Origin: Parietichytrium sp. I65-24A
Lineage: Eukaryota > Sar > Bigyra > Thraustochytrida > Thraustochytriidae
Length of the DNA: 64,000 nt
NCBI GenBank assembly: GCA_012862575.1
Contig: BLSF01000073.1
Span: forward strand, 62,001 to 126,000
Direction: 5' to 3'
Shown: piece after piece, positions 3,277-56,069 of the stretch
Position numbering within the stretch: the stretch's first letter is position 1
How the letters are laid out: each line of letters starts with the position of its first letter
Notes under the pieces: generated by a model
The model's database searches: none
Seen by the model: only the letters and a program-made list of their open reading frames with translations
Told to the model about the DNA's origin: nothing
Position numbers and translations under genes: made by a program

Positions 3277-4356
3277 CTATTCCTGGAGGGGCGTAATTTT
3301 GGAGCTGTTTATAGATTGCTCGGTCCGGTTCGCAGAAGTGGTGACGGTGACAGCGGAAGAGGCCTTTGCAGGTTTCTTTTGCTCCATGTAGTAAATGTTC
3401 ACCGGGTGGCTCTTCACGACAGTCGACAGTAATAGAAAGAATGTGATGGCCAGTGACTGCAGCGGAAGCAGCGTCGGGATGGTTGTGAACGCAATGTAGA
3501 TGATAGAGCTCAAGGTTAGGGCTCTGGACCTGTCTTTTCCAAGCTTATCCATGTAATCCATCACCTTTTGAGCCTTTGCTGACTCCGCAGACGCCTTCGA
3601 CTTGGACATTGCTCCAATGATCTCTCGAATCTGGCCTGCAACATTGCGCTCCACCAAGGCCATTGATAGCAAATAGCAGAGGAAACCAATGTTTCGAGCC
3701 GCGATTCCGTATCGCATGTACGACGTCTCCGGGTTCATGTGCTCCTGAAAGAGACTGGAGAGTAGGAAACCCATATTCGTGAAGATGTATATGGTGAAGG
3801 TGCCCCAGTACGCTACGGAAAGGATTTTCTGAAGCCATTTCATTTTATCGGGATTCAAACCAGAACTTTTGGAAACCAAGGCAAAGTTGCGCAGACCTGA
3901 AAGGCTTGTGTTTATGAACCCAATGGTGATACTGATCAAGAAGGTCAAAGTCAGGGGCACGTCTCTTCCCAAAGAAGCCCCATCGGCTGGAGCGAGCTTC
4001 ATGATAGCGAGAGAGATCACAAAAATAGCATTTGTCAAGCATAGGGTGAGAATCTGAAAGCTAGGAAATTGCCAAGGCTTAAGTTGTTTGCCTCTTCTGG
4101 CACGAGTCTCCTTGTTTCGAAGATATAGCATGCGTTGCCTGGGTATAGAGCGAATGCCGCGATAGAGTAGCGCGATCCATCCTATTAGGGACAAGGACCA
4201 GAGAACTTGTTCAAGGAGCCTTGGCATGGGACAAGCATATCCATCATAAGAGAGCACGTCAGTCTTGCCTGTCCAGCCCGGATCGCAGACGCAGTACCCA
4301 TCTTGGCAGGTTCCGTGCAGGCACGTTCCGATGCAACGGGGCTCGGAACCATTCAT
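3277..4356 (-). CDS. EGF-like/seven-transmembrane protein, array copy 1
   Basis: 359 residues from the ATG at 4356; the frame continues upstream to 4533 but only through non-ATG codons. Residues 8-42 form a tenascin-type EGF-like module with six cysteines (C8, C12, C17, C22, C24, C42) and the usual pattern GTCLHGTC...CVCDPGWTG. Seven hydrophobic segments follow at about 47-68, 98-120, 133-153, 182-204, 217-237, 280-299 and 300-314. Between segments 5 and 6 lies a charged loop with MSKSKASAESAKAQKVMDY, conserved in all four copies; the C-tail begins with a conserved SHPVN. No signal peptide is seen, so the short N-terminus was probably placed outside by the first membrane segment. The plan resembles a small receptor, but no GPCR class is recognised and no ligand can be named. 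Most similar to copy 2. Confidence 0.85.
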   Translation of the reverse strand: MNGSEPRCIGTCLHGTCQDGYCVCDPGWTGKTDVLSYDGYACPMPRLLEQVLWSLSLIGWIALLYRGIRSIPRQRMLYLRNKETRARRGKQLKPWQFPSFQILTLCLTNAIFVISLAIMKLAPADGASLGRDVPLTLTFLISITIGFINTSLSGLRNFALVSKSSGLNPDKMKWLQKILSVAYWGTFTIYIFTNMGFLLSSLFQEHMNPETSYMRYGIAARNIGFLCYLLSMALVERNVAGQIREIIGAMSKSKASAESAKAQKVMDYMDKLGKDRSRALTLSSIIYIAFTTIPTLLPLQSLAITFFLLLSTVVKSHPVNIYYMEQKKPAKASSAVTVTTSANRTEQSINSSKITPLQE

Positions 4357-6579
4357 CTCTGACTCGCTCAGTTCTCGCACAAGACGCAGTCCCCCCCGGC
4401 GCTGCGTCGCTCGCACAAAAAGCTCTCCCTCGCTCACGCTGCAGATCCCTCTACCGTACGCGATCGCGTTTCGATTATGATTCTGGTTTTGGCTTCGGTT
4501 TCGGTTTTGCAAGGAGAGATACTTGTTTCTCACAAAGTCAACGCCATTCCTTTCTCACTTGGGCACCTATACAAGACGGGGCACTAAGCTGCCTGCCACC
4601 TACATCTTCACCACCTCTATCCTGTTTCATATTCCCACTTGATTTAATGTTTTAATGTTTTATATTCCCACTTCCAGTTCGACATTTTCTTACTCCACTC
4701 AACCTTTTACTCACTATGGCCTGGCATATATAACACTGCTCTCTACTGGTACTCTACTACTCTGAATCGTTCCGTTTCGTTGGCATTTTCGGGGCGCACT
4801 TTGCGATGCCAGTCCAACATTCTAGCAGTACTTTCGACCGCAATGCGTGCCAGGCCCTGATCTCTTGACCGCGGTCTTGCGAGGGCAAACTCACCTTGCC
4901 AAAGCACTTCTTTAATAAGACCGCGTTGTGTGTGGCTATCGTCAACATTAGCACGGCGGCTTATCTCTCAACGCTCATGGCAAGGCTCAGGGCTCAGGCT
5001 TACCCAAGGTTCAACGCATCTGGTATGACTGTGGTGGTCTTGACAGGAGGTTTCCAATTCCTCATGCTCAATATTCCCGCTTGCTATTCAACATTTTTCT
5101 TGTTTTTTTCGCCGATGATGTTCTATTCGAACTTACTGTGAAGTTACTTTTCCGATTCTTTCGCTTCTTAAAATTCATAGCTCTGGCGTTCTTTAAAGAG
5201 GATGGCGCGGTCTTGCGCGAAGATCTACTTTTCTCATTTGGTAATAAATGGGAGAAGCGATCAGTGGAATGCTGAAGAAAGGGGAAACGATCGAAACCAT
5301 TCGTGTCCAAAGTACCGAAACTCTATGCCGGTACTGACTTGAATACCTAACCCTCAAGTGCGACCTGCACACTTGGCAAAAAGGTCGACTGATACCTTTC
5401 GTGCCGAATACTCTCCTTCGCTGGGCGTGGCAATGGGAAATAGCATGCCAAGCAGGCGTTTCCTTTGCCAAGTGTGGGTGAATCTCAGCAGGATAATACC
5501 GAGCTTGATCCGTTATTTCAAGCCTTAACGGAATTGGTTGTGTTGAGGTGAGTTGAGATGAGATAAGATGAGATGAGATGAGATGAGATGAGATGAGATG
5601 AGATGAGATGAGATGAGATGAGATGAGATGAGATGAGCGGATGAGACCCTGTCTTCTCACCCGGGTCGAAGTCACGGAGTCCGAGTCTGGGTCTGGTCGT
5701 AATTCAACGTATCTGGAATGACTCCTCGGATTATTTCTCCTCGAATGCGCCTTGTTTGGACTGCAATGTTTTGAAACAGAGAAGAAGTTTTTGGACAAGA
5801 CATTATTGTGGCCAAATTCCGGGTAGGGAGGGTATGGAGGTTTTGGAAGATAGAATTGGTCGCGGGCGCACGATGTGCAGATTGTACCGGTAAACTTTCT
5901 GACTTCGAACGTCTTTATTCAAGCCCTCCAATCCCAACATAGCTATGTATGGAATCTATCAATCTCTCAAACATGACAGCGGTCTTGGTTTTGAACATGC
6001 TGAATCTCTTCTTTGGGTTTTCTTCTCCGTGCCTTGCATTGTTTCAATCAGGGGAGCTGGAGCATACGCCGGGTTTCTGTGCAACACTTTGACAATATTA
6101 CGTGGCCAAATGTAGCGTTTTTATGCACAATGTCGATAAAGTCAGTGGTGTCGGTGATGTGCTGGCGGATGGCGGGGGCAAAAGACTCTCGCGCGGCTGC
6201 GGGAGACTCCTGATGTCGGCGTCGTCAATATCTATGAATGCTCTCCCCCCCTTTACGATGCTCATTCTGTAGAACTCGAACAGAAATTGTTGGATAGCTC
6301 GATGACATTCCCAAACCATTCCAAAATTGACTTTTCCCCTCGAGCGCGCAGGTGTCGGCAAGTCAAAATTACTTTCGTCCAAACGTCACCCTGCACTTGC
6401 CCCACGAACGCTGCTCTCTATCGCTCGCTCCCGCTTGCAGCCCAATTGTAAGATTTCTTTCGTGCTCCTGTCCATTGGGGTCAGAATGTGTCAAGCTAGC
6501 TCGCTCTTTAGTTGGTAGACAGACAACAAAAGGAAACAAATGCGTTGGTAATAAAAAGCAAACTATGATCGGGAATTCA
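4357..6579. other. Spacer between EGF-7TM copies 1 and 2
   Basis: No supported gene. The 5' flank of copy 1 holds a 13-base block, GCGCTGCGTCGCT (4399-4411), 43 bases before the ATG, that recurs at the same distance before copy 2. A 19-base string TTCAACGCATCTGGTATGA (5010-5028) recurs exactly at 9126-9144 and approximately at 5703-5721. A GAGAT pentanucleotide array lies at 5554-5637. The segment around 6160-6230 resembles 3100-3150. These are signs of old segmental duplication. Confidence 0.5.
5554..5637. repeat. (GAGAT)n pentanucleotide array
   Basis: About seventeen tandem copies of the pentamer GATGA/GAGAT, nearly perfect, with one GATAA variant near the left end. It lies in the spacer between EGF-7TM copies 1 and 2. 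Confidence 0.92.
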
Positions 6580-7650
6580 TCAGGTACCGGAGGTTGCGTG
6601 CGAAGACATTACTGAGCCTTCGGTGGTGAAACCCGGAGTGACACTCGTCACAGACCCTTTCGCAGGCTTCTTGCGCTCCGAGTCATACATATTTACCGGA
6701 TGGCTTTTGACAAAGGAAGCCAAGGACATGAAAAGTGCGATGGCAAGTGACTGAAATGGCCACAGCTGCGGGACAAATGAGAATGCCAAGTAAATGACGG
6801 AGGTCAACGTCAATGCCTTGCGTCTCTCCTTCCCGAGCTTCCTCATGTAATCCATCACCTTTTGAGCCCTTGCTGTCTCAGCAGACTCCTTCGTCCTAGA
6901 CATATTTTCGATAATGCTCTGAATTTGAGCAGTCACCTTGCGCTCTGTCACAGCCATAGAAAGTAGATAAAACACGAACCCCATGTTTCTTGCGACGATT
7001 CCAAATCTCATGTACGAATTTTCCGGATCCATTTGATCTTGAAATGCACTGGAGAGCAAAAAGCTCCACGTGACCGAAATGTAGACACCGAGGCTGCCCC
7101 AGTACACTCTCGTGAGACTTCTCTTCAGTGAAGTCATTTTCTCAGGACTCAACCCAGAGCTTTTGGAGACCAAGCTAAAGTTTCGCAGATCTGCAATAAC
7201 GGTGACTGAAAAGCCAACGGAGATGTTGATCGAGAAAAGCAAAGTGAAAGGTACATCTCTTCCCAAAGAGATGCCATCCGCTGCGGCCAGTTTCATCAAA
7301 GATAATGCAATCGTCATAACAGCGTTTAATATGCTCAGGCCAATTACCTGCATGCTGGGATATTGCCAAAGCATGAGTCGCTTTCCTCTCCTAGCTTGAC
7401 TTGCCTTGCTCCGAAGGTAGAGGGCATGCTGCCGAGGAATAGACCGTACGGCACGAAAGAGAAGGATGGTCCAGCCGATCAGCGCGATGCTCCATAAAAC
7501 GTGCTCTGCGAGCCTTGGCATCGGGCAGTCATATCCTTCGTAAGAGAGCACGTCAGTCTTGCCTGTCCAGCCCGGATTGCACAAGCAGAACCCATTCTGG
7601 CACGTCCCGTGCAGACAGGTCCCGCTGCAACTGGGCTCCGAACTATTCAT
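6580..7650 (-). CDS. EGF-like/seven-transmembrane protein, array copy 2
   Basis: 356 residues from the ATG at 7650; the frame upstream of it uses only TTG and other non-ATG codons. The N-terminal EGF-like module (about residues 8-42) is nearly identical in cysteine spacing to copy 1 (GTCLHGTC, CLCNPGWTG, DCPMPRL). Seven hydrophobic segments follow at matching positions, with the conserved LRNFSLVSKSSGL loop after segment 3, the SYMRFGIVARN segment, and the MSRTKESAETARAQKVMDY loop between segments 5 and 6. The C-tail starts with SHPVNMY. The close match to copy 1, extending into the 5' flank, suggests that copies 1 and 2 are the product of a later duplication than the split from copies 3 and 4. 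Function is unknown; a surface receptor or adhesion-like protein is an inference. Confidence 0.85.
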   Translation of the reverse strand: MNSSEPSCSGTCLHGTCQNGFCLCNPGWTGKTDVLSYEGYDCPMPRLAEHVLWSIALIGWTILLFRAVRSIPRQHALYLRSKASQARRGKRLMLWQYPSMQVIGLSILNAVMTIALSLMKLAAADGISLGRDVPFTLLFSINISVGFSVTVIADLRNFSLVSKSSGLSPEKMTSLKRSLTRVYWGSLGVYISVTWSFLLSSAFQDQMDPENSYMRFGIVARNMGFVFYLLSMAVTERKVTAQIQSIIENMSRTKESAETARAQKVMDYMRKLGKERRKALTLTSVIYLAFSFVPQLWPFQSLAIALFMSLASFVKSHPVNMYDSERKKPAKGSVTSVTPGFTTEGSVMSSHATSGT

Positions 7651-9664
7651 CTCTGGCTCGCACAGTTCCCGCTGAAGGCGCAATTCCCGCCCAGCGCTGC
7701 GTCGCTAACACAAAGCCCTCCTGCAGGGCGCCGATTGATAAGCCGTGCAGTGAGTACCTTGCCCGCACTAGCACTCGCGCTCGCACTCGCACTCGTGTCT
7801 TCGTCTCGGTTGAGAGGCTTCTCAATGCGGTTTGCCCAAGGTCACCGACTTGCAAGAATGACACATAGTCGTTGCGCTTTGCGACAGGATGTCTCCTCAA
7901 AACCACTTTCATGAGCAATGTGTACGAGTTATGTCGGGCCATACGGTAGGCGTCGGTAGCCTTGTTTGGGGTCTTGGGCCTGGAGAGGTCCCGGACGCGA
8001 GACCAACCTACTGCCCAGCTAAGGACTTCTTCTTCTTCTTCTTCTGCGCTTTCTCTTGCCTCGGTCGCAGACTCTCTGCAATGCTTATAGCACAGTCTGC
8101 AAAGTCGCGAATGTTTCGTGTCATTCAACGACCTCCACCTCCATTTTCATAGCTTCTGTGAGTTGATGTCGCTTTCCTTGGCTCGAGCGAAAGAAAAAAA
8201 GCAAGAGAGGAAGGAAGAAGGTGGCACATTCCAATTTGTCCACGCCACGAAGTTGTCTCGCCTTGTACGAGATAGCTCATTCCACCAACCACTCCGCCCA
8301 TTCGTAGAGAAAGAACTTAGGCCTGCCGCCAGCTCCCTCTAAAAGTGTCCGTTGCTCGGCAATTGTTGTGCCCACTGCTGTCGTTTTATGCGACCAGGAA
8401 TCGCCGCCGAGAGTGCTTTGGAAAGATGATACCGCACGCCCAAAAAGAAGCGCATACTATGCTCACTGTCAACAGCAGCGCACTCACTCACTCGCTTCTG
8501 ACTTGTGACTTGTGACTTCTGAAAGCTTTGGAGCGTGATTTCTCAAACGAGACGGCACTTTTGCAAAGTTCAATTTGGACGGGCCAAATGTGCCTAAATT
8601 GGCAGTGGACTAACTAGAACCTCTACAGTGCATACACCTCCAGTCTTCTCACACTGTGAGTTCTGGCTCTAGTATTGCCTCAAAGTTTGCCTTTCCAACT
8701 TTGCTTTCTGCTACCAATCATCCAAGACCCAAGGTAGTGAGCATCAAGAATCTTACTGTGGGAAAGGGTTTCAACGGCTCTGAAGTATTACTTCCAAGTT
8801 AGTTTATTGTTAATCGCTAACTTTGGTTTTACTGTTAGTTAATGGTGAAACTACGTGCCAAGGCATGGCATGGCATTCCACTTGGGAAAACATGTCAAAG
8901 AACATTCTCCTGTTTGTCTTCTGCTTCCGTTGTCTTTTGTCATGTTTTCTCTATCTTTATCTTTGGGTTTCGCTTTGCAATGCGATAAATGTTCTTCGCA
9001 TCGCTGCAAGTGGAAGTTGGAACATCTGCTTCCTGTTCGATCATAAAACACAGTTTGCCTGCCTCGGGGTCTTCTTGTCCTCGGCTGGACATCGGAGAGC
9101 GTGTAGAGCGCAAGCGGAACGAAACTTCAACGCATCTGGTATGATTTTCAGCTGGTATGAAAGAACGAAAAGAATGACACAACATCTTTGAGAGCCCAGC
9201 TACTCGGGCTGTCTAGAGCAAGACATACCCGTCGTTTTGGGACACTGGTGCTCTACAGTCTACGGAGTCCAGTTGGCAGATCACGCATCTCTGTCACGGG
9301 CGGCTGCGCCAACTTGAACCCTATAACGATGCGACGATGATGTAACCGCCGCGAGCAAACTCCCAGGCCAGCCAATCACTGCCGCCCATGAGTCCAACTG
9401 ACGAAGAAAATCAAGTCTACTCAAGTTATGAACTCAAAAAGGCGTGCTATTTGCGCTTGTTTAGAATTCGCTGTTTGCGTCACGTTTGAAACGCTTTGTG
9501 TTCTATAGTGCAAGAGAGTGGCCCGTTTGCCTGCGATCAAAATATGCGCCGCGCTTGTTATAAATATACCAAAAACTGCAGCGCGACCTTACTCCAAATT
9601 TGCCTCTTCGAAGAAAAACTTTCGACATAAACCAAAAGCATGTTTCAACTGGAATACTCTGTTC
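7651..9664. other. Spacer between EGF-7TM copies 2 and 3
   Basis: No supported gene. The copy-2 flank carries GCGCTGCGTCGCT at 7694-7706, matching the copy-1 flank, followed by a run of CGCTCGCACTCGCA-type hexamers near 7770. The 19-base string shared with 5010-5028 lies at 9126-9144. A CTT/TTC run occurs at 8030-8045. Confidence 0.5.
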
Positions 9665-10732
9665 TCATGCATGCTCGCCGGAGGAAAGTACCGAGCTTGT
9701 GGCCACTGTCGATGGCGCAGCTGTCGATGGCGCACCTCCAGTCCCGGTGGGAGCCACTGAAGAGGCCTTCATGGGCTTTGATTTTTCTGCGTTGTAGGAG
9801 TTGATAGGATGACTTTTCGAGAGGGTCGCGAGACACAAAAATGTCGAAATGGGAATCGACTGATAACCCCACAAAGGTGGCATGGTGAAAATGATGTATA
9901 TAGTAAAGGCAACGGCTAGGGTCTTTCGACGCTCCTTCCCCAGGGAGATCAGATAATCCAAAACCTTTTGTGCCTTCATGGTTTCGGCGGACTCTTTGCT
10001 CTTTGACATGCCTTCAATGATTCCTCTTATTTGTTTGGCGACTTTTCGCTCTGTTGCTGCCATCGAGAGCATGTAAAACACAAATCCAAGGTTTCTGACG
10101 ACGACGCCAACTCGCATATAGGAAGTTGCTGGATCTTGCTGACCGATGATAGCGCTAGGAAGCACGAACGACCAAGTCGAGATGAGGTACGCCGCGAGAC
10201 TGGAGATGTACACCTTCTGGAGCGTACCCTTCATCTCCTTCATTTTGGCCTTGCTGAGGCCGGAGCTACGAGCCACAAGATCAAAGTTGCGCAGATCATG
10301 AATCAATGCAACTGTGAAAGCGACACTGACGTTCAGAAGAAATGCGATGGTAAATGGGATGTCCAGACCTAAGGTGCCAATTTGAAACACCTTGCCAAAA
10401 CTCAATACATAGGAAAGAGGGACCGTCACGCCCAGCGACAAGGCGATTATCTGCAGGCTGGGATATTGCCACCACGATATTTTCCGGCCCTTCTTCGCAT
10501 TGTTTGCCTTGGCTCGGAGAAACAGAGCATACTGGCGAGGCCAGCACTTGACTCCGCGCACAAACTGGAGGGTGAAACCCACTGCGACAGTGCTCCACAG
10601 AATCTGCTCCACGATGATCGGCATGGGGCAATCGTACCCATCGAAGGAGAGTATGTCAGTGCGTCCTGTGTACCCCTCATTGCAAACGCAAAAGTTTGTT
10701 TCATTCAGCTTCCCATTTGTACAGTTCGTCAT
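9665..10732 (-). CDS. EGF-like/seven-transmembrane protein, array copy 3 (reduced EGF module)
   Basis: 355 residues from the ATG at 10732; the longer frame up to 10828 starts with GTG and is not used. The ectodomain keeps the second half of the EGF pattern (CVCNEGYTGRTDILSFDGYDC) but has only four cysteines (about residues 4, 15, 17 and 33), so the first disulphide pair of copies 1, 2 and 4 is missing. There are two or more N-glycosylation sequons (NCT, NET). Seven hydrophobic segments follow, with the family loops LRNFDLVARSSGLSKAK, SYMRVGVVVRN and MSKSKESAETMKAQKVLDY, then PPLWGYQSIPI and SHPINSY. The PPLW motif is shared with copy 4 and not with copies 1 and 2. The tail ends in a Thr/Ser/Ala/Pro-rich stretch. 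Confidence 0.85.
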   Translation of the reverse strand: MTNCTNGKLNETNFCVCNEGYTGRTDILSFDGYDCPMPIIVEQILWSTVAVGFTLQFVRGVKCWPRQYALFLRAKANNAKKGRKISWWQYPSLQIIALSLGVTVPLSYVLSFGKVFQIGTLGLDIPFTIAFLLNVSVAFTVALIHDLRNFDLVARSSGLSKAKMKEMKGTLQKVYISSLAAYLISTWSFVLPSAIIGQQDPATSYMRVGVVVRNLGFVFYMLSMAATERKVAKQIRGIIEGMSKSKESAETMKAQKVLDYLISLGKERRKTLAVAFTIYIIFTMPPLWGYQSIPISTFLCLATLSKSHPINSYNAEKSKPMKASSVAPTGTGGAPSTAAPSTVATSSVLSSGEHA

Positions 10733-11610
10733 GTTTCCTCCGTCCTGCTCGGCTTGCGTCGTACTACCCAAGTCTTGCACTCGTTGTGGCAACCTCGCCA
10801 GCTCTCTCGCATACTCGTGTCCCTCCACCGCCAGGCAAGCGCTCCGTTCTGAGTGTCACCGAGTGGAGCTATAAATACGGACCGGCAAGGTGAGTATAGG
10901 TACTGACGCTAGAACATGAAGTTTGGTGCATCTATTTCCTTGGTCAAGAGCGCAAACAGTTTGGTCTGCCCACTAGACATGCTACAGCTCAATACAACAC
11001 CTTTTCAGAGATTCACACGATCTCCGCACTGAATTCTTCTCGGGAAGCACAAGTTCATTTGGGTGTGGTGCCCACAATCCATACTTAAAAGAGTAAAGCA
11101 AAGCGTGCAGCTGATCGAGGGCAAATAAGGTCACCAACGAAACCCGCACACGCGTTCTAGTACCTAGATCAACGGCAGTCGTTCCTTCGCTTACCGTGGT
11201 GTACAATGTGAAAGGAACGGAACTTGCATGTAAATTTGGAGTTCACTCTCCACCAACGAATCTTTTCTCGACAGTGAAACAAACCGCAGGACGTCATAGC
11301 CGCTGCAAATCACTTGAAGATTGCTATGCTTCAAATCTCGGGTCGACCCTGCTTTCGTGTCTTTGGAAGAGAGAGAGAAAAGCCGCTTAGATGTTGGGAT
11401 GTGAACGACGGCACAGTTTAATTAGCAGCGTTTCGTTTCCCGATCCTTCAACCTCTTCTCCTGCAAGCTTAGCAGCATCCCTTTCACGAATTTAATCTCG
11501 CCATCATCATCGCCATCGTAAACTCTGAGCGTTTTGGCCTCACTCGTCTTCAATGAACATGGAGCTCTAATCAGCGGTTACTTCCGCGACTGTCGTGGAC
11601 AAATGGATTA

Positions 11611-11725
11611 GAGTGAATGGATGAATGAAAATGAATGAATGTGGATGAATGAATGAATGAATGAGAGTGAATGAACGAATGAATGAGTGGGAGGGAGTCA
11701 ATGAATGAACGAACGAATGAATTAC
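11611..11725. repeat. Imperfect (GAAT)n array
   Basis: A run of GAAT/GAAC tetramers with interruptions, between copies 3 and 4 of the EGF-7TM array. The reading frame it opens on the minus strand (HSFIHSF-type) is a by-product of the repeat. Confidence 0.85.
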
Positions 11726-12173
11726 TACTGCCAGCCAGCATGTCAGTTGGTCAAAATTAAGACGTTCTGGGTGTCCAACGCTGTCCAACTTGACTCCTCT
11801 CACTCACCGGTACTTGTTAGTCAGTGCTAGTACTTACCACTACGATACCGTACAATTTTTTTCAGAAGTACTACGCGAAACGCTGATTGCCCTAGTGCTA
11901 ATGTAAATCAGGGCATAATAGTGCATGAGGTAAGGATCGGTTGGAGCCGCCAACAACCGTGACTTTGAAAATTGTAACGGTAAAATTGATTGGTACACAT
12001 GTATCAGGAGATGAGATCGACATTATTTTTATTATATTGGATTAACACTGCACGGGGCGGCACTTGAAGGGTCTGAAGAGTCTGAAGAGGAGAGCCCCCG
12101 TTGGGTTTAGTTGTTGTTAGACAGTTTCTTGTGAGGAGCAGTTCTCGGCTTTGGAGCTCTCTGAGCTGTTGTC

Positions 12174-12506
12174 ATGAATACCCGGAATCAAATTCGGGAA
12201 AAGAATCGAGGTTGGTTAGCAGTGAATGTGGCACCTGCGCTGTTTGCGTCCGGTGATTTGAACTCTCCGCCTGGTGCGCAAAATCCGTCGGATTTGTCAA
12301 ATGCACTGCGTGGATTCGCAGACAGATTCGTTGAGACTAGACGAACTTACTCTCAGGTCATCTCACGACCCGGTATGTCGGCAAAACTGACAACTGTTAC
12401 GGGGATGCGATACGACTTCAGGGTTATCAATCGAGAGTACACTGGAAATAGGTTCTTGTTGGCAGGGCTCATGGTGAAGGTCTTTCGAGTATGTAATTCG
12501 GCCTAG
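12174..12506 (+). CDS. Hypothetical 110-residue protein, doubtful
   Basis: An ATG-started frame of 110 codons with ordinary amino-acid composition and no repeats (MNTRNQIREKNRGWLAVN...). It has no recognised domain, signal peptide or membrane segment. Near the 3' end the sequence CGA/GTATGT looks like a splice donor, with a TTTCTAG and a TTGACAG acceptor-like site within 65 bases, but neither joins to a long frame. It lies on the opposite strand to the EGF-7TM array. It could be real, an exon of a gene not resolved here, or chance. Confidence 0.3.
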   Translation: MNTRNQIREKNRGWLAVNVAPALFASGDLNSPPGAQNPSDLSNALRGFADRFVETRRTYSQVISRPGMSAKLTTVTGMRYDFRVINREYTGNRFLLAGLMVKVFRVCNSA

Positions 12507-12954
12507 CTGGTGCTGCAGCTCAATTACTTTTCTAGATGTTTCATTGACAGGGCCCAAGCGAGTGGGAGAATGACACATGCGAGGAAAGATGCTATCCTTC
12601 GAGATCCTCCGGATCTCCTTCGACTGGTCAGCTCTTGTCCTCGCTGAGATGCATGACTTTCGCGAACAGCAAATGACTTCTTTTGTTCATTTCGTTATCT
12701 CTAAGAAGATCTGTCTGTTTGTTAACTCTCGCTACTCCTAGAGAGGTGCGGGCGATGATCTACTTGCGAAGCCAACCTTCGGCAACTCACCCAGGAGGCC
12801 GCCATTCAAACATCTGTTCAGCAAGAGACATTGACCGCAAAGCCCATAGCGGCAAGCTGAAAGAAAATCTCAGTGAATTCGAACTCGTCTTTTTCATTTC
12901 AATCATTTCCAGTAACATCTCGCCTTCCAACTGTGGCGTACAGCCCTCAAAGGA

Positions 12955-13206
12955 CTAAATCACATAGCCCATTGCGGACCTCCTGATTGTAAGTAAGTTC
13001 GCCAGCCACAGGATTTCTAGGTCTAATGTGAAAGTCGGCCGCAAGCCTTTCATTTCCGAGGCAGCCGCTGAAACAATAAGCGCGAAGGTATGGATCCCCA
13101 GCAGCAACAACACAAAACAAATATTGTCGGCATCAATGTACTCCGGAGTGCAAGTCTTCAATCTTACATGGAGCAGAGATTGAAAGAAATATAATGCGCT
13201 AAACAT
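12955..13206 (-). CDS. Hypothetical 83-residue membrane-like frame downstream of copy 4, doubtful
   Basis: An ATG-started frame that begins only 38 bases after the stop of EGF-7TM copy 4, on the same strand. It has one clear hydrophobic segment (about residues 29-48, NICFVLLLLGIHTFALIVSA) and a second moderately hydrophobic stretch. No family was recognised. It may be a remnant of another membrane-protein gene, a part of the 3' UTR of copy 4, or chance. Confidence 0.25.
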   Translation of the reverse strand: MFSALYFFQSLLHVRLKTCTPEYIDADNICFVLLLLGIHTFALIVSAAASEMKGLRPTFTLDLEILWLANLLTIRRSAMGYVI

Positions 13207-13243
13207 GGAAGGAGGACGCCGAGGGTTTAGAACGGGGTAGTTA

Positions 13244-14359
13244 CTACTCCGCCATCACACTCGGCTGTGCAGTGGACATCACAGTGCTGGGCCCTGCGCT
13301 TGACGTGGCGGTGAGAGCGTCCTGGGTCGTGTTGTTTTGCCGCGGTTTCACCGAGTTCTCCTTCTCCGCACTGTAGGCATTAACTGGATGACCTTTTGAG
13401 AGCGTCGCAAGCATTAAAAATGTTCCGATCGGTACAGTCTGGAAAGCCCAGAGAGGTGGGATTGTAAAGATGACATAAACTATGAACGCAACGAGAAGCC
13501 CCTTCCTTCGTTGTGCTCCAAGCTTCTGCAAATAGTCGAGAACCGCCTGGGCCTTGGCAGTTCCCGCAGAGTCTTTAGACTTGGACATGTTTTGAATTAT
13601 ACTCTCGATCTGGTGTGCCACCTTGCGTTCTGTGATTGCCATGGACAGCATGTAGAAAATAAAGCCGATATTTCTCACAACCAGACCAACCCGCATGTAT
13701 GACTTCTTCGGGTCCATAGTCCCCATCAGAGTGCTTGGCAGGAGGAAGCACCAAGCTGATAACAGATAACAGGACAAGCTTCCCCAATATACCTTCTTGA
13801 GAAGCCTTCTCATCTCTTGCACCTTCTGCGGATTGAGGCCCGAGCTTTTAGCGACCAAGTCAAAGCTTCGCAAGTCGTAAATTACCGTGATAGCAAAAGA
13901 CAAGCTTGCGTTGCAAAGAAAGCAGAGTGTAAAACCGAAATCGTTGGCCATGGAGAAATTGTTCAAATTCAACACTTTTCCAATGGTCATATAGTACGAC
14001 AGCGGCACCGTGAGGAAAATGGTGATCCCAAGAATTTGCAAGCTAGGGTATTGAAACCACCGCAACACCACCCCTTTTTTAGCCTGCTGATCTCTGTTTC
14101 GCTTAAAAAGTGCATATTGTCTCGGCCACGCCTTGCAAGCCCTGATGAAGATCAGCGTGAATCCCGCGAGGACCAAGCTCCAAATCGATTGTTCAAGAAC
14201 GATAGGGAATGGGCAATCATAGGTGTCGAAGGAGAGAACATCTGTCTTGCCAGTGTACCCTGGGTCACAGACGCAGTGGAACGTCACATTGTCGCATGTA
14301 CCGTGTGTGCAATCCGAGTTACACCTGTCCAGAGAGTATGTGGCTGTCGCGTTTCCCAT
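13244..14359 (-). CDS. EGF-like/seven-transmembrane protein, array copy 4
   Basis: 371 residues from the ATG at 14359 (MGNATATYSLDRC). The EGF-like module has six cysteines (about C13, C17, C22, C29, C31 and one in YDCPFP) in the same spacing as copies 1 and 2. Sequons NAT and NVT are present. Seven hydrophobic segments follow with the family loops LRSFDLVAKSSGLNPQK, SYMRVGLVVRN and MSKSKDSAGTAKAQAVLDY, then IPPLWAFQTVPI and GHPVNAY, where the other copies read SHP. The tail is Thr/Ser/Ala-rich, like copy 3. This is the furthest-upstream member; about 2.5 kb separates it from copy 3. Function is unknown. Confidence 0.86.
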   Translation of the reverse strand: MGNATATYSLDRCNSDCTHGTCDNVTFHCVCDPGYTGKTDVLSFDTYDCPFPIVLEQSIWSLVLAGFTLIFIRACKAWPRQYALFKRNRDQQAKKGVVLRWFQYPSLQILGITIFLTVPLSYYMTIGKVLNLNNFSMANDFGFTLCFLCNASLSFAITVIYDLRSFDLVAKSSGLNPQKVQEMRRLLKKVYWGSLSCYLLSAWCFLLPSTLMGTMDPKKSYMRVGLVVRNIGFIFYMLSMAITERKVAHQIESIIQNMSKSKDSAGTAKAQAVLDYLQKLGAQRRKGLLVAFIVYVIFTIPPLWAFQTVPIGTFLMLATLSKGHPVNAYSAEKENSVKPRQNNTTQDALTATSSAGPSTVMSTAQPSVMAE

Positions 14360-36699: not shown

Positions 36700-38835
36700 T
36701 TAGTCCAGCTTAAGCTTGGATCCGCTCCACTTTTGCTTCAAGCGATTAAGCATGAGCCAAGTTCCTGTCGTGGCCAGGCAGCCGGTTACCAAGAGTGCAA
36801 TGGTTGTCGCACTGCCAGGTGAGATAAAAAAGCAGCTCAACTCCGGGGTCGACCACATTGGTTCCGTATAGAGGGAAGCAGTCGAGTCCACCACGGTATA
36901 CCAGTTCGACGAGCTGTCGTACTCAATAGCAACAGGGATTGCGTCGTGATAGAAAAAGGATGGGCAAATGCACTTGGAGTCCATGCACATGAGCGAGGAG
37001 CGGCCCGGAGGACACTCTACCGCCCCGGCTTTGATACAGTCCGCGTCGTAGGTGCATGATGCTTCTCCCGGGGCAGGGGCTACTGCATTGGGCAATCTTG
37101 AGAGGTAGGCCTTCACAAATCGCTCTATCAGCTTCATGGCGTTGTTTTCGACGCGACGGATGCGGTAGACGCTGGTAAACAGCGTGATGGGCCCCGTGGA
37201 CGAAGCGGATAACGAAGTTGACGACGATCCTTGCATTGCCTTCCGAACGTCGGCGATGGTCCAGCCAAGTGTCCTCACGACCGCATCACAGCCAAAGTCC
37301 TCTGCGAAACATTTCCACAACTCTGTGGCATGTGTGCTGTTTACAGTGATAGCAGTCTGAGCAAGCCCCGAGTCTCCTCCCGCGGCCACAAACGCGGAGC
37401 GAGCAATCACAGCAGCAACCTGAGCAATCTTTTCCGCTGTGGCGTCTTCGTCATCACTCGAAGTGCTCTTGTCAGCCGACGACTGATAAGCTGGGTTAGT
37501 CTCAGCAAAGTTGGTGTCGTATCCGGTGAACACAATACCAGTCCCGTTCCAGACAGACCCGCTAGGTTGCACTTTGCCTTGTACAAAGCTGTCCAGCGGA
37601 GAAGGCGGAACGCTGTCCACTCTACTAGAAGAAGCCACCTCTATCGAGGCGAGAGAAGAGTTCTTTGCCACCTCTGCGACAACAGCTTGGAGTTCCACGC
37701 TAGCAGTATTTCCAGGGATTGTGTGAGTGTAGTAAGTCTGGGCGGACCCCATTCCTGTTGCAACCTGATCCACCGCAATCACTTGGGAAATATTCGCAAG
37801 CGTTAGATTCGTCCATGCTAGCGAGAGGACAAGCGGCACTCCACAGCCATACTCATTGTACGCGCTATCTAGAGACTTGCACCCATTGCCTCCAATGTCC
37901 TGGACAAATCGCTTTGATCCAATAGCATCCCAGCTCTCGCCCTGGAAGACCGCCACGGCGATTTGCTTTGTCAGATTCGTCAAAATGCTCTGGTCAGAAA
38001 CGTCAGCCAGAGCTTTGGCCGCGAGAAGAGTTGCAACGATACCAGACGCACCGTGGTTTCTCCCGAAAGCAAGATCGTGCAAAAACGCATTCGTATCCAT
38101 CCCTGTCGTTAAAAGCACAGTGTCCTTGGCGTCAGGGTACCCGCCGACAACGCCCCAAACGCTCATGCCGCCGAGGGGGTCGCACTTTCGCGCAGCGAGA
38201 CACTGCGAGGAGGTGACGGTGTCTTTCCCAAGATAAAACTGGAACCTGGAGCCTCGAACAGAAACTCCGGAGGAGAACCCTTTTTCGGCATTTCGCAGGG
38301 CGTACGACTTGATCTCCTCTGCGTCTGCACTCGTTTTGGGCATTGTCACAGAAAACGGCACCAGCATATCCAGAAGCCCGGTTCCAGCGGTATTCCAAGT
38401 TGTTTGGGCAGCCCCATTAGCAGACGGTGAAGAGGTGCTGTTTGCAGGTAGAACAATAAGGTTGTCGATGGCGACAAAATCCTTATTAATGGTCACAAGC
38501 TTGTCCATCACGGACTTGGTGAGGAGGTCCGAGTCGATTATAACCCCCAACGGGCCAAACACTGAGTCTGGAGTTCCGCCGCTGATGAAGGCGTCAATCT
38601 CTGCCTCGGTGGAAATGTAATACAGCATTCCACCTTCGCCAATGTCCAGCTTCTCTTTGGATCCGCAAAGCAAAGGGCCACTTTGAGAAATGACTCTGCT
38701 GCATGGCCACGAGTCGAAAGTAGGGAACATGACATCCAGGATCTCATTGTACGCAGACTCCACTGCTGTGCTCGGCACAATCGACCCGCTCAAAGCCAGC
38801 GACCAAATCGCTACAAATTCTGCAACGCCGCGCAT
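36700..38835 (-). CDS. NCSTN: Nicastrin, gamma-secretase subunit
   Basis: 711 residues from the ATG at 38835; ten upstream codons begin with TTG and are not used. A signal peptide (MRGVAEFVAIWSLALSGS) leads into a large ectodomain with many N-glycosylation sequons. The nicastrin core is recognisable: a peptidase-like stretch with VAVFQGESWDAIGSKRFVQDI, matching the GExxDYIGS-type motif of animal nicastrins. A single membrane segment (about residues 675-697, ATTIALLVTGCLATTGTWLML) and a short basic cytosolic tail follow. Nicastrin is the substrate-gating subunit of gamma-secretase with presenilin, APH-1 and PEN-2; those partners are not in this window. The length matches human nicastrin (709). 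Single exon. Confidence 0.85.
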   Translation of the reverse strand: MRGVAEFVAIWSLALSGSIVPSTAVESAYNEILDVMFPTFDSWPCSRVISQSGPLLCGSKEKLDIGEGGMLYYISTEAEIDAFISGGTPDSVFGPLGVIIDSDLLTKSVMDKLVTINKDFVAIDNLIVLPANSTSSPSANGAAQTTWNTAGTGLLDMLVPFSVTMPKTSADAEEIKSYALRNAEKGFSSGVSVRGSRFQFYLGKDTVTSSQCLAARKCDPLGGMSVWGVVGGYPDAKDTVLLTTGMDTNAFLHDLAFGRNHGASGIVATLLAAKALADVSDQSILTNLTKQIAVAVFQGESWDAIGSKRFVQDIGGNGCKSLDSAYNEYGCGVPLVLSLAWTNLTLANISQVIAVDQVATGMGSAQTYYTHTIPGNTASVELQAVVAEVAKNSSLASIEVASSSRVDSVPPSPLDSFVQGKVQPSGSVWNGTGIVFTGYDTNFAETNPAYQSSADKSTSSDDEDATAEKIAQVAAVIARSAFVAAGGDSGLAQTAITVNSTHATELWKCFAEDFGCDAVVRTLGWTIADVRKAMQGSSSTSLSASSTGPITLFTSVYRIRRVENNAMKLIERFVKAYLSRLPNAVAPAPGEASCTYDADCIKAGAVECPPGRSSLMCMDSKCICPSFFYHDAIPVAIEYDSSSNWYTVVDSTASLYTEPMWSTPELSCFFISPGSATTIALLVTGCLATTGTWLMLNRLKQKWSGSKLKLD

Positions 38836-38999
38836 CCTGGCCAACTCGATACTAAAGCCCTCCAAAGTTCACTATTCTGATCTATTGCAAAATCAGAATC
38901 GATCCAACTCCCACGTCCCGTTCCTGGCACCAATCACAACACAACACAGCTCAACCTCCAAAGCTTTGCAATCTTTGACCTTCCTCGCTCAGCAATGCA

Positions 39000-40592: not shown

Positions 40593-41765
40593 TCAGAGGT
40601 CCATAGACTCGCTCGCGTTGCGGTGGTCACGGGCCATTTCGTGGAGCCGCTCTAAGATTTCCGAAAATGACGGACGTTTGCGTGAATCGTGGTTCCAGCA
40701 CTGTATCATGAGCTCCCTGTAAGCGTCAGGGCAATATGGTGGAACGCGCGGTCGAAGTCCACTCTGCGCGACGGCAAAAGCTACGTCAAGGCCAGGTTTA
40801 CCGTCATATGGCTCGTCACGAGTAATGATTTCCCACATGACAATGCCATAGCTGAACACGTCCACCTTGTTGTTGTATATTTCGCCCAGAATGAGCTCGG
40901 GCGCGGCCCAATAAGGAGTGCCACAAGCAGTCATAGATTCGTCGATTTCGCCAGACTGAAACCGTGAAAGCCCAAAGTCGCATATTTTGACATTGTGCGA
41001 ATAGTCCAAGAGAAGATTGCGCGACTTTAAGTCGCGCTGAATAATGTGTGCACTTTGGTGCAAATAGCGCATGCCCCTCGCGATATCAATGTTGAATTTG
41101 AGCACTTTAGAATACGAGAGAGCGGTGCCCTCTCCTTTGCCTAATAAAAAGTCGTGAAGGCTCCCAAGCTCCAGATACTCCAGAATGAGCATCATTTTCC
41201 CAGACTCCAGCGACGCGCCAAGGAACACCACAATATTCGGGTGGTGCAACTTGGTCATGAGGTCCACCTCCACGACGAATTTATCAAGCATGTTCTTAGG
41301 AATGTCCTTCAGCGGCTTTTTCACCGCCACTGTCATCCCGCACCATTCGCCCCTGAAAACCTCTCCGAACGACCCGGCCGCAATCTTATCGTTAATTTTG
41401 ACGTCCTTAGGATGGATTTCCCATTCCCTTGCCTTCCTTCCGGCTTTCCGCGGCGCTCGTTGCGGGGTGTTAATGGCTATTGGAGACTTGAGCTTCTCAC
41501 TTCTCTCTGCTGGCGCAATTTTGCCAGAAAAGAGTAACCCTGTGCCAAGCTTCCATTTCTGAGAATTTAAATTGAACTTGCGAGTCCTGTTCCCTCTGCT
41601 GACGCTAGTGTTCACCACCAGAATATCTCCGTTTCGAATCACCTGCAGACGAGCTCTGGACGCATACGCTAGTGAGAAAGCCATCGCGTTCCACAAGAGC
41701 AGCACGGCAATCAGAAATACTTGGAGCGCCGTTACGCATTTCTGCTCAACGCAATCCGCCTCCAT
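40593..41765 (-). CDS. Membrane-anchored TKL-family protein kinase with HRD to QRD change
   Basis: 390 residues from the ATG at 41765. One membrane segment lies near the N-terminus (about 12-34, VTALQVFLIAVLLLWNAMAF). The kinase domain covers about 121-385 and resembles TKL kinases (Raf/CTR1-like): Gly loop AAGSFGEVFRG, catalytic Lys in VAVKK, DFG in KICDFGLSRF, and a TPYWAAPEL activation-segment end. The catalytic loop reads QRDLKSRNLLLD, so the His of the canonical HRD is Gln while Asp, Lys and Asn remain. The domain is probably catalytically competent, but the His that stabilises the active fold is lost. The ectodomain is only about ten residues unless upstream exons exist. Single exon as annotated. 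Confidence 0.87.
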   Translation of the reverse strand: MEADCVEQKCVTALQVFLIAVLLLWNAMAFSLAYASRARLQVIRNGDILVVNTSVSRGNRTRKFNLNSQKWKLGTGLLFSGKIAPAERSEKLKSPIAINTPQRAPRKAGRKAREWEIHPKDVKINDKIAAGSFGEVFRGEWCGMTVAVKKPLKDIPKNMLDKFVVEVDLMTKLHHPNIVVFLGASLESGKMMLILEYLELGSLHDFLLGKGEGTALSYSKVLKFNIDIARGMRYLHQSAHIIQRDLKSRNLLLDYSHNVKICDFGLSRFQSGEIDESMTACGTPYWAAPELILGEIYNNKVDVFSYGIVMWEIITRDEPYDGKPGLDVAFAVAQSGLRPRVPPYCPDAYRELMIQCWNHDSRKRPSFSEILERLHEMARDHRNASESMDL

Positions 41766-41930
41766 TGGGCCAGCTCCCAACTATGCTGCAGAATACCTTC
41801 CTAAACCCTCCTCGCGAGCATCTCAAGATCAATATGTGTCGAGCTCGCAACTCCCTCCAGCCGCGAAATGACCTGGCGCCAATCTCCGCACAGTGCAAAG
41901 ACGAGCCCCGCCTCCAGAAACCCAAAAGCA

Positions 41931-53237: not shown

Positions 53238-56069
53238 ATGACGACATTTTCGAAAGCGAGCTTGGCCAAAGACGCTTCGTCGGGCTACACTGCGCAACGT
53301 GGGCCTGCTGTTGCTGCCCACGTAGAGAGAGCTTCGGTGCCGGCTCCGGCAATTAGGAGGGCGATTTCAGCCAACTATGTGGCAGCCAAATCAAATGGCC
53401 GCAGCAATGCGACTCTTGGCGTGCTCGCGGCAATGGGACTGGTAGGAGCCGGTGCAGCGATGTACATTTTCATGCAGCGCAAGAGGGCGGCCAAGAAGGA
53501 GGCTGCCAGGCGGAAGCTTTTGGAGGATCAGCAGCCGGTGCCAAAGAGGGTCGACGGTGCCGAGAATGGTGAGGGCGGCATCGCGAAGAACGGCATGCTG
53601 TACGGAATCAGGGTCGTCGAACTGGGCACTGTCGCTGCTGTCCCGTCCCTGTGCCGGATCATGGCTGATTATGGTGCCGAGGTTATCAAGGTGGAGTCCC
53701 GACAAGGAGACAGTCTTCGCCACTCTTTCCTCAAGTATGAGACGGGGCGGTCATTCTCAAGCAGCTTCGAAGTGTACAACGTTGGCAAGTACTCTGTCGT
53801 GTTGAATCTCAGGTCTGAGAAGGATCAGATCGCTCTTCGCAAACTTCTCCAGGAAGCTGACGTGCTCGTGAGCAATGTGCGGCCCGGCAAGTTGGTTGAG
53901 ATTGGTCTCGGTCCATCACAGCTGAGCAAAGACTTCCCACACCTCGTCGTCGCGGACCTGTCAGCTTGGGGGGACTCTGGGCCGGACAAAACGAAGCCAG
54001 GATTCGACATCGGTGCATTTTGGACTGCTACTGGTCTAAGCACGCTTTTCCATGACGAGTCCACCCGCTCGTACTCACTGTATCCTGTAAGCGGAGGAGA
54101 TTTAGCGGCTGGCCAGATGTTGCTTTCCGGAATCATGATGGCGCTCTCGGATCGCATCCGATCTGGGAACGGTCGCCGCGTCTCAACATCGCTCTTGCAC
54201 TGCGGGAGCTGGTGCGTCGCACCGACCTTGCTTGAGGAGCAGCAGCGAGCCGCGCAGCGATTGCCATCCAACGCCACGTCTCCATACTCCTCCGCCACGA
54301 AAAGGCACAACCCAATCCGGGCAGTCTACAGCACCAAGGATGACAGAAACATTGTCGTGTTAGGGCCACGGTCGTCCGTGTTCGGGGCTGGAAGTCCTCG
54401 TAGGGACGAGAACGCCAACGATCATATTGCCGTTGCACAATTTGCCAAGGCTCTTGGAATCAATCTTGCCCCGCCGCTAAAGAAGGAGGAAGTTTACGAG
54501 TGCGCAGTGGAGAAAATATCTGGAATGCCCTTTGACGAAGTCCTGAATCTCCTCGAGCAACACCACTTCAACTATCGCGAGTCGCGATTCTTGCCTGCTT
54601 TGTGGGCAACCCTCAAGCCTGAGCACGAAGCATGCAAGCTCTTGGCCGCTCAAGTTGGAGACGAGGAGAAGATGCAATTCCGGGAGAGTCTTTATGATGC
54701 GCCAGCTGACATCCAAGACCTCGTCAAAATAGTGCGCCCGCCGTACGACTTTTCGTGCAGCACTGGTCATTTTCTTCGCAAGCGTGCGCCATTCTTGGGG
54801 GAGGACTCAAAACCAGTGTCTCAACACGGCTGGCTCGAGCGGCCAAAAGAGTTTTTGCTGCCAAAGGCTTCCCCACAAGGCGCTGCTGGAATGACCAAGG
54901 GCGTGGTGGCGAGACAGCCTCTTACTGGCTGCATTGTTGTCGAGCTTGCTGATTTTTCTTTGCCATTTGTTGACGTGAGCATAAGCTCAGCATCAAATAT
55001 GCTTATGGAGGAGGGGGGGTGCAGAGTCATTCGCATCGAGCCAAAGAGTGGCGGCGACCAGTTGAAACGAGAGAACCCAAAGCTTTACGAGCACTTGAAT
55101 TCCGGGAAAGAGGTTGTTCATATCGGAGACCTTAGTCTTGAAGGGAACGAACAGCTGCAAAATATACTGGCAGATCGTGCTCACATTCTCCTCACCAATC
55201 TCACGCCCAACAAACTAGCGCACTATGCTTTGGACGCTGGTTCCCTTGCGCAGCGCTGCCCTGGGATCATAGTTGTTCATGTTGACGCCTACCGCCAGCC
55301 AAACAACATGTACGAAGACATGGGACATGGGTGCCTCGGGAGCATGTGGGCCGGCTCTGGCCTGTCCTCTTGCTTTGCGGGCAAGCCTCCGTGTTCGATC
55401 GTCACACCTCCAGAACACATCCTTGAAACGCTGGCATCCTTTTACGTCACCGCCGCAGTAAGCCTGGCATGGTTTCATCGCGTGCGGACTGGGGAGGGAC
55501 AGACTGTGAAGGTGTCTTATGACGCGATTGGCTACTGGACTAGTATCTGCCATACTTCATGGGTTCACCGCAACCCACTGGTCGCAGATATCTTCTTTAT
55601 GCGCCAGGACGAGCTTCACGATGTGCACCCTCAACCAACATATGCTTCGTTTCGAACCAAAGACGGCATCTGGGTCCAGCTGCTAGGCAATGAGCCTGCA
55701 AAGCACATTCCTCGAACTTTGAATGCTCTGGGCTATTCTAAAATTGTCTACCTGCGCATTCTCTGGACTTTGATTACGAAGGTGGCCATGAACAACACAG
55801 CTCCGAGCTCGCTGCATAAAGTGCTCCCATTTTGCCAATACCTCAACCACCTCTTTGACGTGGGCATGGGTGCCTTGACTTTTGCAGAGTTCGAACAGAA
55901 TGCTGCTAAATATGACGTATGGATGAATCCCGTGCGAACGCCGGTGCAGCTCCTAAGCTATGGACAGACTCGTGTTAATGGCGTATTTGAGACCATGTCC
56001 CATGGCAACATTCTCCGCGTGACCACCCCGCTCAGAATCTCAGAACCGTTCGACACGGAGCAACAATGA
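53238..56069 (+). CDS. Membrane-anchored double class III CoA-transferase (CaiB/BaiF family)
   Basis: 943 residues, single exon, ATG at 53238. A membrane segment lies at about 54-78 (LGVLAAMGLVGAGAAMYIFM), followed by basic residues (QRKRAAKKEAARRK). Two class III CoA-transferase domains follow: domain 1 at about 118-500 (VVELGTVAAVPSLCRIMADYGAEVIKVE, then LNLRSEKDQ and the PGFDIGAFWTATGL segment with the likely catalytic Asp) and domain 2 at about 560-940 (IVVELADFSLPFVDVS, then EDMGHGCLGSMWAGSGL). Domain 2 keeps the acidic residue in the equivalent place but has diverged in the CoA-binding front part. The family moves CoA between carboxylic acids. The tandem arrangement resembles other double-domain family members, such as the eukaryotic alpha-methylacyl-CoA-related proteins. 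The substrate is unknown. Confidence 0.82.
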   Translation: MTTFSKASLAKDASSGYTAQRGPAVAAHVERASVPAPAIRRAISANYVAAKSNGRSNATLGVLAAMGLVGAGAAMYIFMQRKRAAKKEAARRKLLEDQQPVPKRVDGAENGEGGIAKNGMLYGIRVVELGTVAAVPSLCRIMADYGAEVIKVESRQGDSLRHSFLKYETGRSFSSSFEVYNVGKYSVVLNLRSEKDQIALRKLLQEADVLVSNVRPGKLVEIGLGPSQLSKDFPHLVVADLSAWGDSGPDKTKPGFDIGAFWTATGLSTLFHDESTRSYSLYPVSGGDLAAGQMLLSGIMMALSDRIRSGNGRRVSTSLLHCGSWCVAPTLLEEQQRAAQRLPSNATSPYSSATKRHNPIRAVYSTKDDRNIVVLGPRSSVFGAGSPRRDENANDHIAVAQFAKALGINLAPPLKKEEVYECAVEKISGMPFDEVLNLLEQHHFNYRESRFLPALWATLKPEHEACKLLAAQVGDEEKMQFRESLYDAPADIQDLVKIVRPPYDFSCSTGHFLRKRAPFLGEDSKPVSQHGWLERPKEFLLPKASPQGAAGMTKGVVARQPLTGCIVVELADFSLPFVDVSISSASNMLMEEGGCRVIRIEPKSGGDQLKRENPKLYEHLNSGKEVVHIGDLSLEGNEQLQNILADRAHILLTNLTPNKLAHYALDAGSLAQRCPGIIVVHVDAYRQPNNMYEDMGHGCLGSMWAGSGLSSCFAGKPPCSIVTPPEHILETLASFYVTAAVSLAWFHRVRTGEGQTVKVSYDAIGYWTSICHTSWVHRNPLVADIFFMRQDELHDVHPQPTYASFRTKDGIWVQLLGNEPAKHIPRTLNALGYSKIVYLRILWTLITKVAMNNTAPSSLHKVLPFCQYLNHLFDVGMGALTFAEFEQNAAKYDVWMNPVRTPVQLLSYGQTRVNGVFETMSHGNILRVTTPLRISEPFDTEQQ

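Follow-up and report, generated by a model that had tools for sequence, protein, structure and literature searches.

Candidate EGF-capped seven-helix receptors in a tandem gene array of the thraustochytrid Parietichytrium sp. I65-24A

Four tandem genes in the window (the whole 64,000-nucleotide stretch of contig BLSF01000073.1 analysed here) encode proteins that combine a very small EGF-like cap with seven predicted membrane helices. With moderate confidence, we read them as divergent GPCR-like plasma-membrane receptors that carry a minimal EGF cap, have multiplied by tandem duplication and are probably G-protein coupled. None of the scans of Pfam, NCBIfam and PDB sequences assigned the membrane part significantly to a named seven-helix family, in agreement with the first-pass annotation of this DNA, which had called the class unrecognised.

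Results

The array and the wider family

The four genes are listed below. Protein lengths are the likely ones, counted from the ATG that aligns across the four genes.

Gene 1: 3277..4356, minus strand, 359 aa, EGF-like/7TM protein; ectodomain about 4222-4356; open frame 3277-4533.
Gene 2: 6580..7650, minus strand, 356 aa, EGF-like/7TM protein; ectodomain about 7516-7650; open frame 6580-7683.
Gene 3: 9665..10732, minus strand, 355 aa, 7TM protein with a reduced EGF module (4/6 cysteines); ectodomain about 10625-10732; open frame 9665-10828.
Gene 4: 13244..14359, minus strand, 371 aa, EGF-like/7TM protein; ectodomain about 14204-14359; open frame 13244-14359.

All four are intronless and lie on the minus strand, confirming the first-pass annotation of same-strand intronless genes of 355-371 codons. 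The proteins share 43-61% pairwise identity, and a copy on contig C172 matches gene 1 at 85% identity. The dN/dS was 0.18-0.20 for gene 1 against gene 2, and these two copies are under purifying selection; synonymous sites were saturated in the pairs involving gene 3 or gene 4. In the tree, proteins 3 and 4 grouped together (support 100/98) and protein 2 grouped with protein 1 and the C172 copy (95/90), which bears out the earlier pairing of copies 1/2 and 3/4. Local or tandem duplication, as had been proposed, is supported as the best reading of how the copies arose. The common layout described earlier also held, but the motifs attached to it vary: the loop motif LVxKSSGL reads LVARSSGL in copy 3, the third-loop motif is variable (MSRTK in copy 2) and the SHPVN end is replaced by SHPIN and GHPVN in copies 3 and 4, respectively.

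The array belongs to a family growing by duplication, but it is only part of it. We read 31 genes of the EGF/7TM layout in the 42.5-Mb genome, and a cap-free profile comparison linked the membrane part in 27 of them, which puts the family at 27 linked genes or more. Outside the 27 stand C31 (best link 31.2%), C19 (40.3%), C2:196k (0.6%) and L050 (C2:1167k, 4.1%); two weaker candidate places (C101 and C7:667k) were left out of the family count. The direct link between the window group and a group of four reached only 22.3%, so that the join runs through a group of nine. A second array, of six genes, lies on contig C69, and further members are scattered and more divergent. One additional member search gave 0 new members.

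The EGF-like cap

The ectodomains of the window genes measure 36-52 residues. One EGF module per gene had been claimed; in the alignment this holds for genes 1, 2 and 4, with six of six EGF-spaced cysteines, but gene 3 keeps four. It lacks the first and third, which are disulphide-bonded to each other in EGF folds. Pfam EGF_2 was found in 16 of 24 alignment rows at E values no higher than 1 (best 4.3e-7). In the protein-level scan gene 2 alone of the four passed the cut-off (22.3 vs. 22.1 bits), and in a genome-wide EGF_2 search genes 1, 2 and 4 did. Only residues C31 and C49 are nearly invariant in the 24-row alignment. Ectodomain cysteines and sequons were counted up to a hydropathy boundary that sometimes fell short of the last cysteine. 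The segment between cap and helix 1 ends at the last cap cysteine and reads [WY]-T-G-x-[ST]-D ... C in most members. In the branch on contigs C69 and C1, 2-4 EGF cysteines are left in all seven genes, and the membrane part is retained. Two distant members (C3:394k and C3:397k) have N-termini that read as signal-peptide-like before the cap.

Membrane helices, orientation and conservation

Hydropathy averaged over the four window proteins gave seven peaks (lowest 1.46), a number that shuffles reached in 0/1000 cases at a threshold of 1.4, in 1.5% at 1.2 and in 45% at 0.9. The first-pass annotation had counted seven segments and had named two outcomes as evidence against itself: fewer than seven in all copies, or an unambiguous hit to a named 7TM family. 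No such hit was found, and the averaged profile and both structure models give seven, but single-protein hydropathy (19-residue window) gives six in all four proteins, missing TM6 or TM7. The dispersed group of nine shows eight peaks at a lax threshold. Seven membrane helices are predicted for the window proteins.

Three loops on one face carry 9-11, 5-7 and 9-12 K+R, the third of them, as counted in genes 1 and 2, containing the missed TM6; on the opposite face there are 1-3 K+R per loop and 2-3 in the N-terminus. This positive-inside pattern predicts an orientation with N outside and C inside.

In the four window genes the stretches most alike are helix 5 and cytosolic loops 2 and 3; the tail, the outer loops and most of the helices have drifted. 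Cytosolic parts exceed helices in conservation by 0.13, a value that 5 of 282 circular shifts attained, and the same difference is weaker across 13 relatives (37 of 282). Cytosolic loop 1, at 0.477, is barely more conserved than the helices (0.461); it has about 30 residues, which is long for the first cytosolic loop of a GPCR.

Searches for relatives

The Pfam scans covered the four window proteins, 24 rows from 22 genes, seven further sequences, and L049 and L050; exon 2 of each of the two-exon genes C69_c, C69_d and C1 lay outside them. The filters of the four-protein scan remove most matches with E over 0.1. The 24-row scan contained no seven-helix receptor among 25 of its 35 matched families. 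An exon of a relative on C69 weakly matched the nematode GPCR family Srh (E 0.16, below the cut-off). Weak matches to Reticulon in gene 4 (E 2), to a membrane protein family in one row (E 0.0034) and to fumarate reductase (E 0.58) were taken as chance. For PUFA synthase, looked at as a lineage marker, the PfaA model had 13 partial matches, all of them under its cut-off.

A viral origin was rejected, as scans with the four-gene alignment (22 pattern stretches) and with one distant member (99 pattern stretches) each gave 0 relatives. A bacterial relative was likewise rejected: the one locus obtained from 27 pattern stretches encodes a cysteine-rich bacterial protein that shares the EGF-like stretch only. 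We found no description of the family in the literature searched, which included few subscription papers and, in the parts seen, PMC10445921, PMC3727952, PMC5784254, PMC12223298 and PMC10101102. The part of PMC8027222 consulted mentions, for a diatom, a transmembrane protein of the mating response that has an EGF-like domain, and gives no number of helices for it.

Structure models

AlphaFold models of gene 4 (pLDDT 62.3, pTM 0.56) and gene 2 (pLDDT 59.8, pTM 0.57), built from four sequences each, are of low confidence. Each has an EGF hairpin and seven helices, with a short eighth helix in addition; in gene 4 the helices span residues 53-94, 105-129, 139-171, 177-211, 221-260, 264-298 and 308-320, and the short one 328-335. 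For both models the first 20 Foldseek rows against the PDB were GPCRs, with a best E of 0.011 and none below 0.001 in the PDB or a viral library, whose best row was a protein annotated GPCR family 1 (E 0.018). Unrelated helical proteins appear among the lower rows for the gene 2 model. GPCRs are abundant in the PDB, which bears on their lead in these lists. By VIA, the fungal pheromone receptor Ste2 came first for the gene 4 model (7ad3_A, Z 12.6, rmsd 5.4, 272 aligned), tied with bitter-taste receptors, and first for the gene 2 model (Z 15.1, rmsd 5.1, 249 aligned), where the first non-Ste2 row was about 2 lower; Z up to about 13 is within the range for helical bundles. The models suggest a GPCR fold for the membrane part.

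GPCR machinery of the genome

G-alpha proteins are encoded at 13 or more loci of the genome, which also has 52 matches to RGS and 82 to class C GPCRs (7tm_3). The machinery needed for a GPCR reading thus exists, which is a precondition only. Profile comparison of the family with the class A, class B/Frizzled-like, class C and cAMP-receptor-like sets of the genome gave no link (at most 3.4%); this test is weak, because the recognised GPCR sets, compared with each other, gave no link either (at most 1.7%). By hhalign the family reached at most 1.2% with class C, and the branch containing the window genes 0.4%.

Discussion

In the reading that we favour, with its putative surface location, ligand sensing and G-protein coupling, the cap would sit outside the cell, tethered to helix 1, and the seven-helix bundle would cross the plasma membrane. 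The basic cytosolic loops and the short helix after TM7 would be turned towards a partner in the cytosol, most likely one of the many heterotrimeric G proteins that the genome encodes, and the paralogues may report different cues to that common partner. Loops 2 and 3 and helix 5 kept while the outer parts drift are what would be expected in such a case. We put forward more tentatively the idea that the family might form a separate GPCR class outside the named ones, with a built-in minimal EGF cap; it would be a tandem-duplicated chemosensory-like repertoire that diversified within this protist lineage beside the very large set of class C receptors, with the numerous G-alpha and RGS proteins serving both.

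It is unlikely, in our judgement, that these are instead non-GPCR seven-helix proteins of the Golgi or trafficking routes, like the GOLD-domain proteins TMEM87A and Wntless, with a lumenal EGF cap that holds cargo. The small ectodomain would suit them, TMEM87A (8hsi_A) came third by VIA for the gene 2 model (Z 13.2, rmsd 4.2, 229 aligned) and Wntless (7kc4_B) was Foldseek row 46 for the gene 4 model (E 0.089, prob 0.97). However, Ste2 outranks TMEM87A for the gene 2 model, TMEM87A is absent from the best 50 VIA rows for the gene 4 model, no GOLD-type family is among the Pfam matches listed, and tandem arrays of drifting copies would fit sensing better than housekeeping traffic. Adhesion or structural surface proteins, whose cap would attach to the cell wall, the matrix or another cell and whose helices would mainly be a non-signalling anchor, also seem improbable. 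EGF modules often mediate adhesion, and in one branch 5 of 9 members have an acidic C-terminal tail ending in [FY]V, which we take to resemble a PDZ ligand; yet one helix is enough for anchoring, and the C69/C1 branch has kept its membrane part while losing most cap cysteines.

A channel, transporter or membrane enzyme is the least probable explanation. A rhodopsin-like pump would fit the microbial rhodopsins in both VIA lists, but the modelled TM7 of gene 4 contains no lysine (the conserved K322 lies after the helix) and thus no retinal site. A CREST-type hydrolase such as TMEM8/PGAP6, which likewise has an EGF-like cap directly before seven helices, would fit adiponectin receptor 2 in the gene 2 list (6ks1_A, Z 11.8, rmsd 4.7, 239 aligned). 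CREST proteins have a conserved catalytic His/Asp/Ser set; H324 is the one His common to all four window genes, which also have D40, D140 and D275 in common, but no His or Asp is invariant across the family in either the 9-row or the 24-row alignment. Since these alignments span distant sequences, they test only for a shared set. Neither family is among the Pfam matches listed.

If the proteins are receptors, about 30 members of a single family in one genome escape a standard domain scan, which picks up nothing but the tiny EGF part and often scores even that under the cut-off; counts of signalling receptors in protists would then change. The caps (intact, reduced and nearly lost) would also form a natural series for asking what such a minimal module contributes to a seven-helix receptor.

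Comparison with known systems

G proteins and three GPCR domains are enriched in thraustochytrids, according to the part of PMC6050695 consulted. Class C GPCRs are abundant in thraustochytrids, this genome included, but none of the 82 7tm_3 places is a family member and the ectodomains have no room for a large ligand-binding domain, so membership was rejected. EGF-TM7/adhesion GPCRs (CD97 and EMR, class B2) likewise join an outer EGF-like module to seven helices. They have a GAIN/GPS region and a 7tm_2 core, in contrast to the window proteins, for which neither is among the Pfam matches listed; the three 7tm_2 places of the genome are other genes, and the helix part has no profile link to the class B/Frizzled-like set. 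A GAIN domain is larger than 36-52 residues and is ruled out by ectodomains this short. The distinction from adhesion GPCRs drawn in the first-pass annotation stands. EGF domains on glutamate-type GPCRs of non-animal opisthokonts are reported in the part of PMC12716839 seen, so the mere combination of an EGF cap with a seven-helix receptor is no novelty. The window family and Ste2 (class D), first by VIA for both models, are only 7-10% identical over the aligned part, and Ste2 is not among the Pfam matches listed for the four proteins. Ste2 has no EGF cap, but it is a seven-helix bundle with its N-terminus outside, as predicted for the window family.

An EGF-like/7TM gene family

The four minus-strand genes belong to one gene family with a common layout. 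The first-pass annotation had described four open frames of 355-371 codons, and their positions and sizes were confirmed, protein lengths being counted from the ATG that lines up across all four:

3277-4356, minus strand, gene 1 (359 residues)
6580-7650, minus strand, gene 2 (356 residues)
9665-10732, minus strand, gene 3 (355 residues)
13244-14359, minus strand, gene 4 (371 residues)

Mutual protein identity was 43-61%. One EGF module per gene had been proposed, and Pfam reads the cysteine-rich start of all four proteins as EGF-like, but gene 3 hardly so. EGF cysteines 1 and 3 are absent from gene 3. In the protein scan of genes 1-4 only gene 2 scored above the EGF-like cut-off, whereas searching the genome put genes 1, 2 and 4 above it.

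With region boundaries taken from a low-confidence model, the invariant columns across genes 1-4 were 13 of 23 in helix 5, 19 of 39 in cytosolic loop 3 and 10 of 22 in cytosolic loop 2; the EGF-like cap came behind these, with 16 of 52. Conservation was lowest in the tail, with 2 of 37, and in the outer loops.

The window has a GC content of 50%. Other genes in it were the following:

36700-38865, minus strand, Nicastrin (large and small lobe), gamma-secretase subunit
40593-41780, minus strand, protein kinase (PK_Tyr_Ser-Thr) with a hydrophobic stretch before it
53238-56069, plus strand, protein in which a single reading frame carries two CoA-transferase family III stretches
63551-64000, minus strand, class C GPCR gene whose 3' part lies in the window and which continues past its end (C73:125662-126534; 7tm_3, E 3.2e-32)

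Family extent, duplication and gene structure

A search of the genome to which the window belongs (42.5 Mb, 172 contigs), with gene 4 as query, gave 30 places with an E-value of 1 or less; distant members used as queries added four more, and a further two that were taken up. We read 31 genes, 29 of which are in the tree (the two others are loci L049 and L050). Profiles were compared without the EGF part. The group of 13 containing the window genes matched the nine dispersed members at 97.5% (E 6.4e-12, 251 columns), and these matched a group of four further relatives at 97.3% (E 2.8e-11), while the direct link between the groups of 13 and four reached only 22.3%. L049 matched the group of four at 94.6%, and reversed-profile controls gave 3.1% or less. 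The three groups and L049 therefore make 27 linked genes, family gene counts being lower bounds. No confident profile link to the family was obtained for the genes on contig C31, on C19 and at C2:196k, or for L050.

Only the last two cap cysteines (C31 and C49 of gene 4) are nearly invariant in the 24-row family alignment. All seven genes of the branch on contigs C69 and C1 retain 2-4 ectodomain cysteines. An acidic C-terminus with [FY]V occurs in five of the nine dispersed members; we take it to resemble a PDZ ligand.

The tree paired genes 3 and 4 (100/98) and placed gene 2 beside gene 1 and a further copy found on C172, a contig of 10 kb (95/90), in agreement with the pairs 1/2 and 3/4 proposed earlier. 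Gene 1 and the C172 copy were closest (100/100), with 85% protein identity; approximately 1.35 kb of C172 matches at 89%. This could be either a copy made recently or an allele that has diverged. Genes 1 and 2 gave a dN/dS of 0.18-0.20, and gene 1 with the C172 copy 0.45-0.56. Another array, made up of six minus-strand genes, is found at C69:60-76 kb. Growth by local duplication is supported. Four genes of this second array and the C1 relative are interrupted at one common place, where genes 1-4 are uninterrupted. In four of these five, exon 1 ends in AT|GTAAGT and an AG acceptor was found by eye, with the frame kept (phase 2); the fifth (L014:1325-2188) was read only to the first donor bases.

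Helix number, orientation and fold

Seven membrane segments had been proposed. Hydropathy averaged over genes 1-4 showed seven peaks (the weakest at 1.46), but single-protein hydropathy (19-residue window) gave six segments in each. Seven peaks occurred in 0 of 1000 shuffled profiles at a threshold of 1.4, and in 45% at 0.9. Two AlphaFold runs with the four window proteins as input gave models of low confidence (pLDDT 62.3 for gene 4 and 59.8 for gene 2 as target). Both have seven helices, with an EGF hairpin before them and one more, short helix behind. Positive residues cluster in the loops on one membrane face, which places the EGF part outside and the tail inside.

In Foldseek against PDB, each model had only GPCRs in its top 20 rows; the lowest E-values were 0.011 and 0.036, none being below 0.001; lower rows for the second model included some unrelated helical proteins. 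A second fold comparison (VIA) ranked the fungal pheromone receptor Ste2 first for both low-confidence models. With the first model it scored Z 12.6 (rmsd 5.4, 272 aligned), level with the bitter-taste receptors (12.5). With the second it scored Z 15.1 (rmsd 5.1, 249 aligned), followed by TMEM87A (13.2) and bitter-taste receptors (13.0). Rhodopsins come after, at 11-12. A GPCR-like helix bundle is likely but not proven from these models.

Receptors and G-protein machinery in the genome

G-alpha had 24 matches (17 above cut-off) at no fewer than 13 loci, several matches being exons of one gene on C45, and RGS had 52. For a unicellular organism, that is a large repertoire for G-protein regulation. 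Class C GPCRs (7tm_3) had 82 matches, some two per gene and one being the gene at the window end; class A had five (three above cut-off), class B three, in the same genes as three class A matches, and the cAMP receptor two. These counts agree with the enrichment in G proteins and three GPCR domains described for thraustochytrids (PMC6050695). Taken with the genome size and the GC content of the window, they make a labyrinthulomycete the likely source; the PUFA-synthase model added nothing to this placement.

Two adjacent rhodopsin-class (7tm_1) matches lie in opposite orientations at C28:220324-223534, one with three stops within the matched stretch, perhaps an intron. Three long proteins on C11, C74 and C119 have a membrane part matching 7tm_2 and an ectodomain that is cysteine-rich by eye; in a scan that covered two of the three, the C11 protein also matches Frizzled/Smoothened (E 6.3e-12). 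A Frizzled-like receptor in this protist is possible.

Comparison with named receptor classes

The class had been called unrecognised, and Pfam scans of genes 1-4 at E up to 10 indeed listed no seven-helix family among their matches, and none was among the families listed for the 24-row alignment; one exon of a relative matched the GPCR family Srh weakly and below the threshold (E 0.16). The family appears to fall outside every named class compared here, in a kinship test of low power at this depth. A GPCR-type fold is probable from the models, and the proteins would be located at the surface, sense ligands and couple to G proteins. Overall, these proteins look like divergent receptors of the GPCR type whose EGF cap is minimal.
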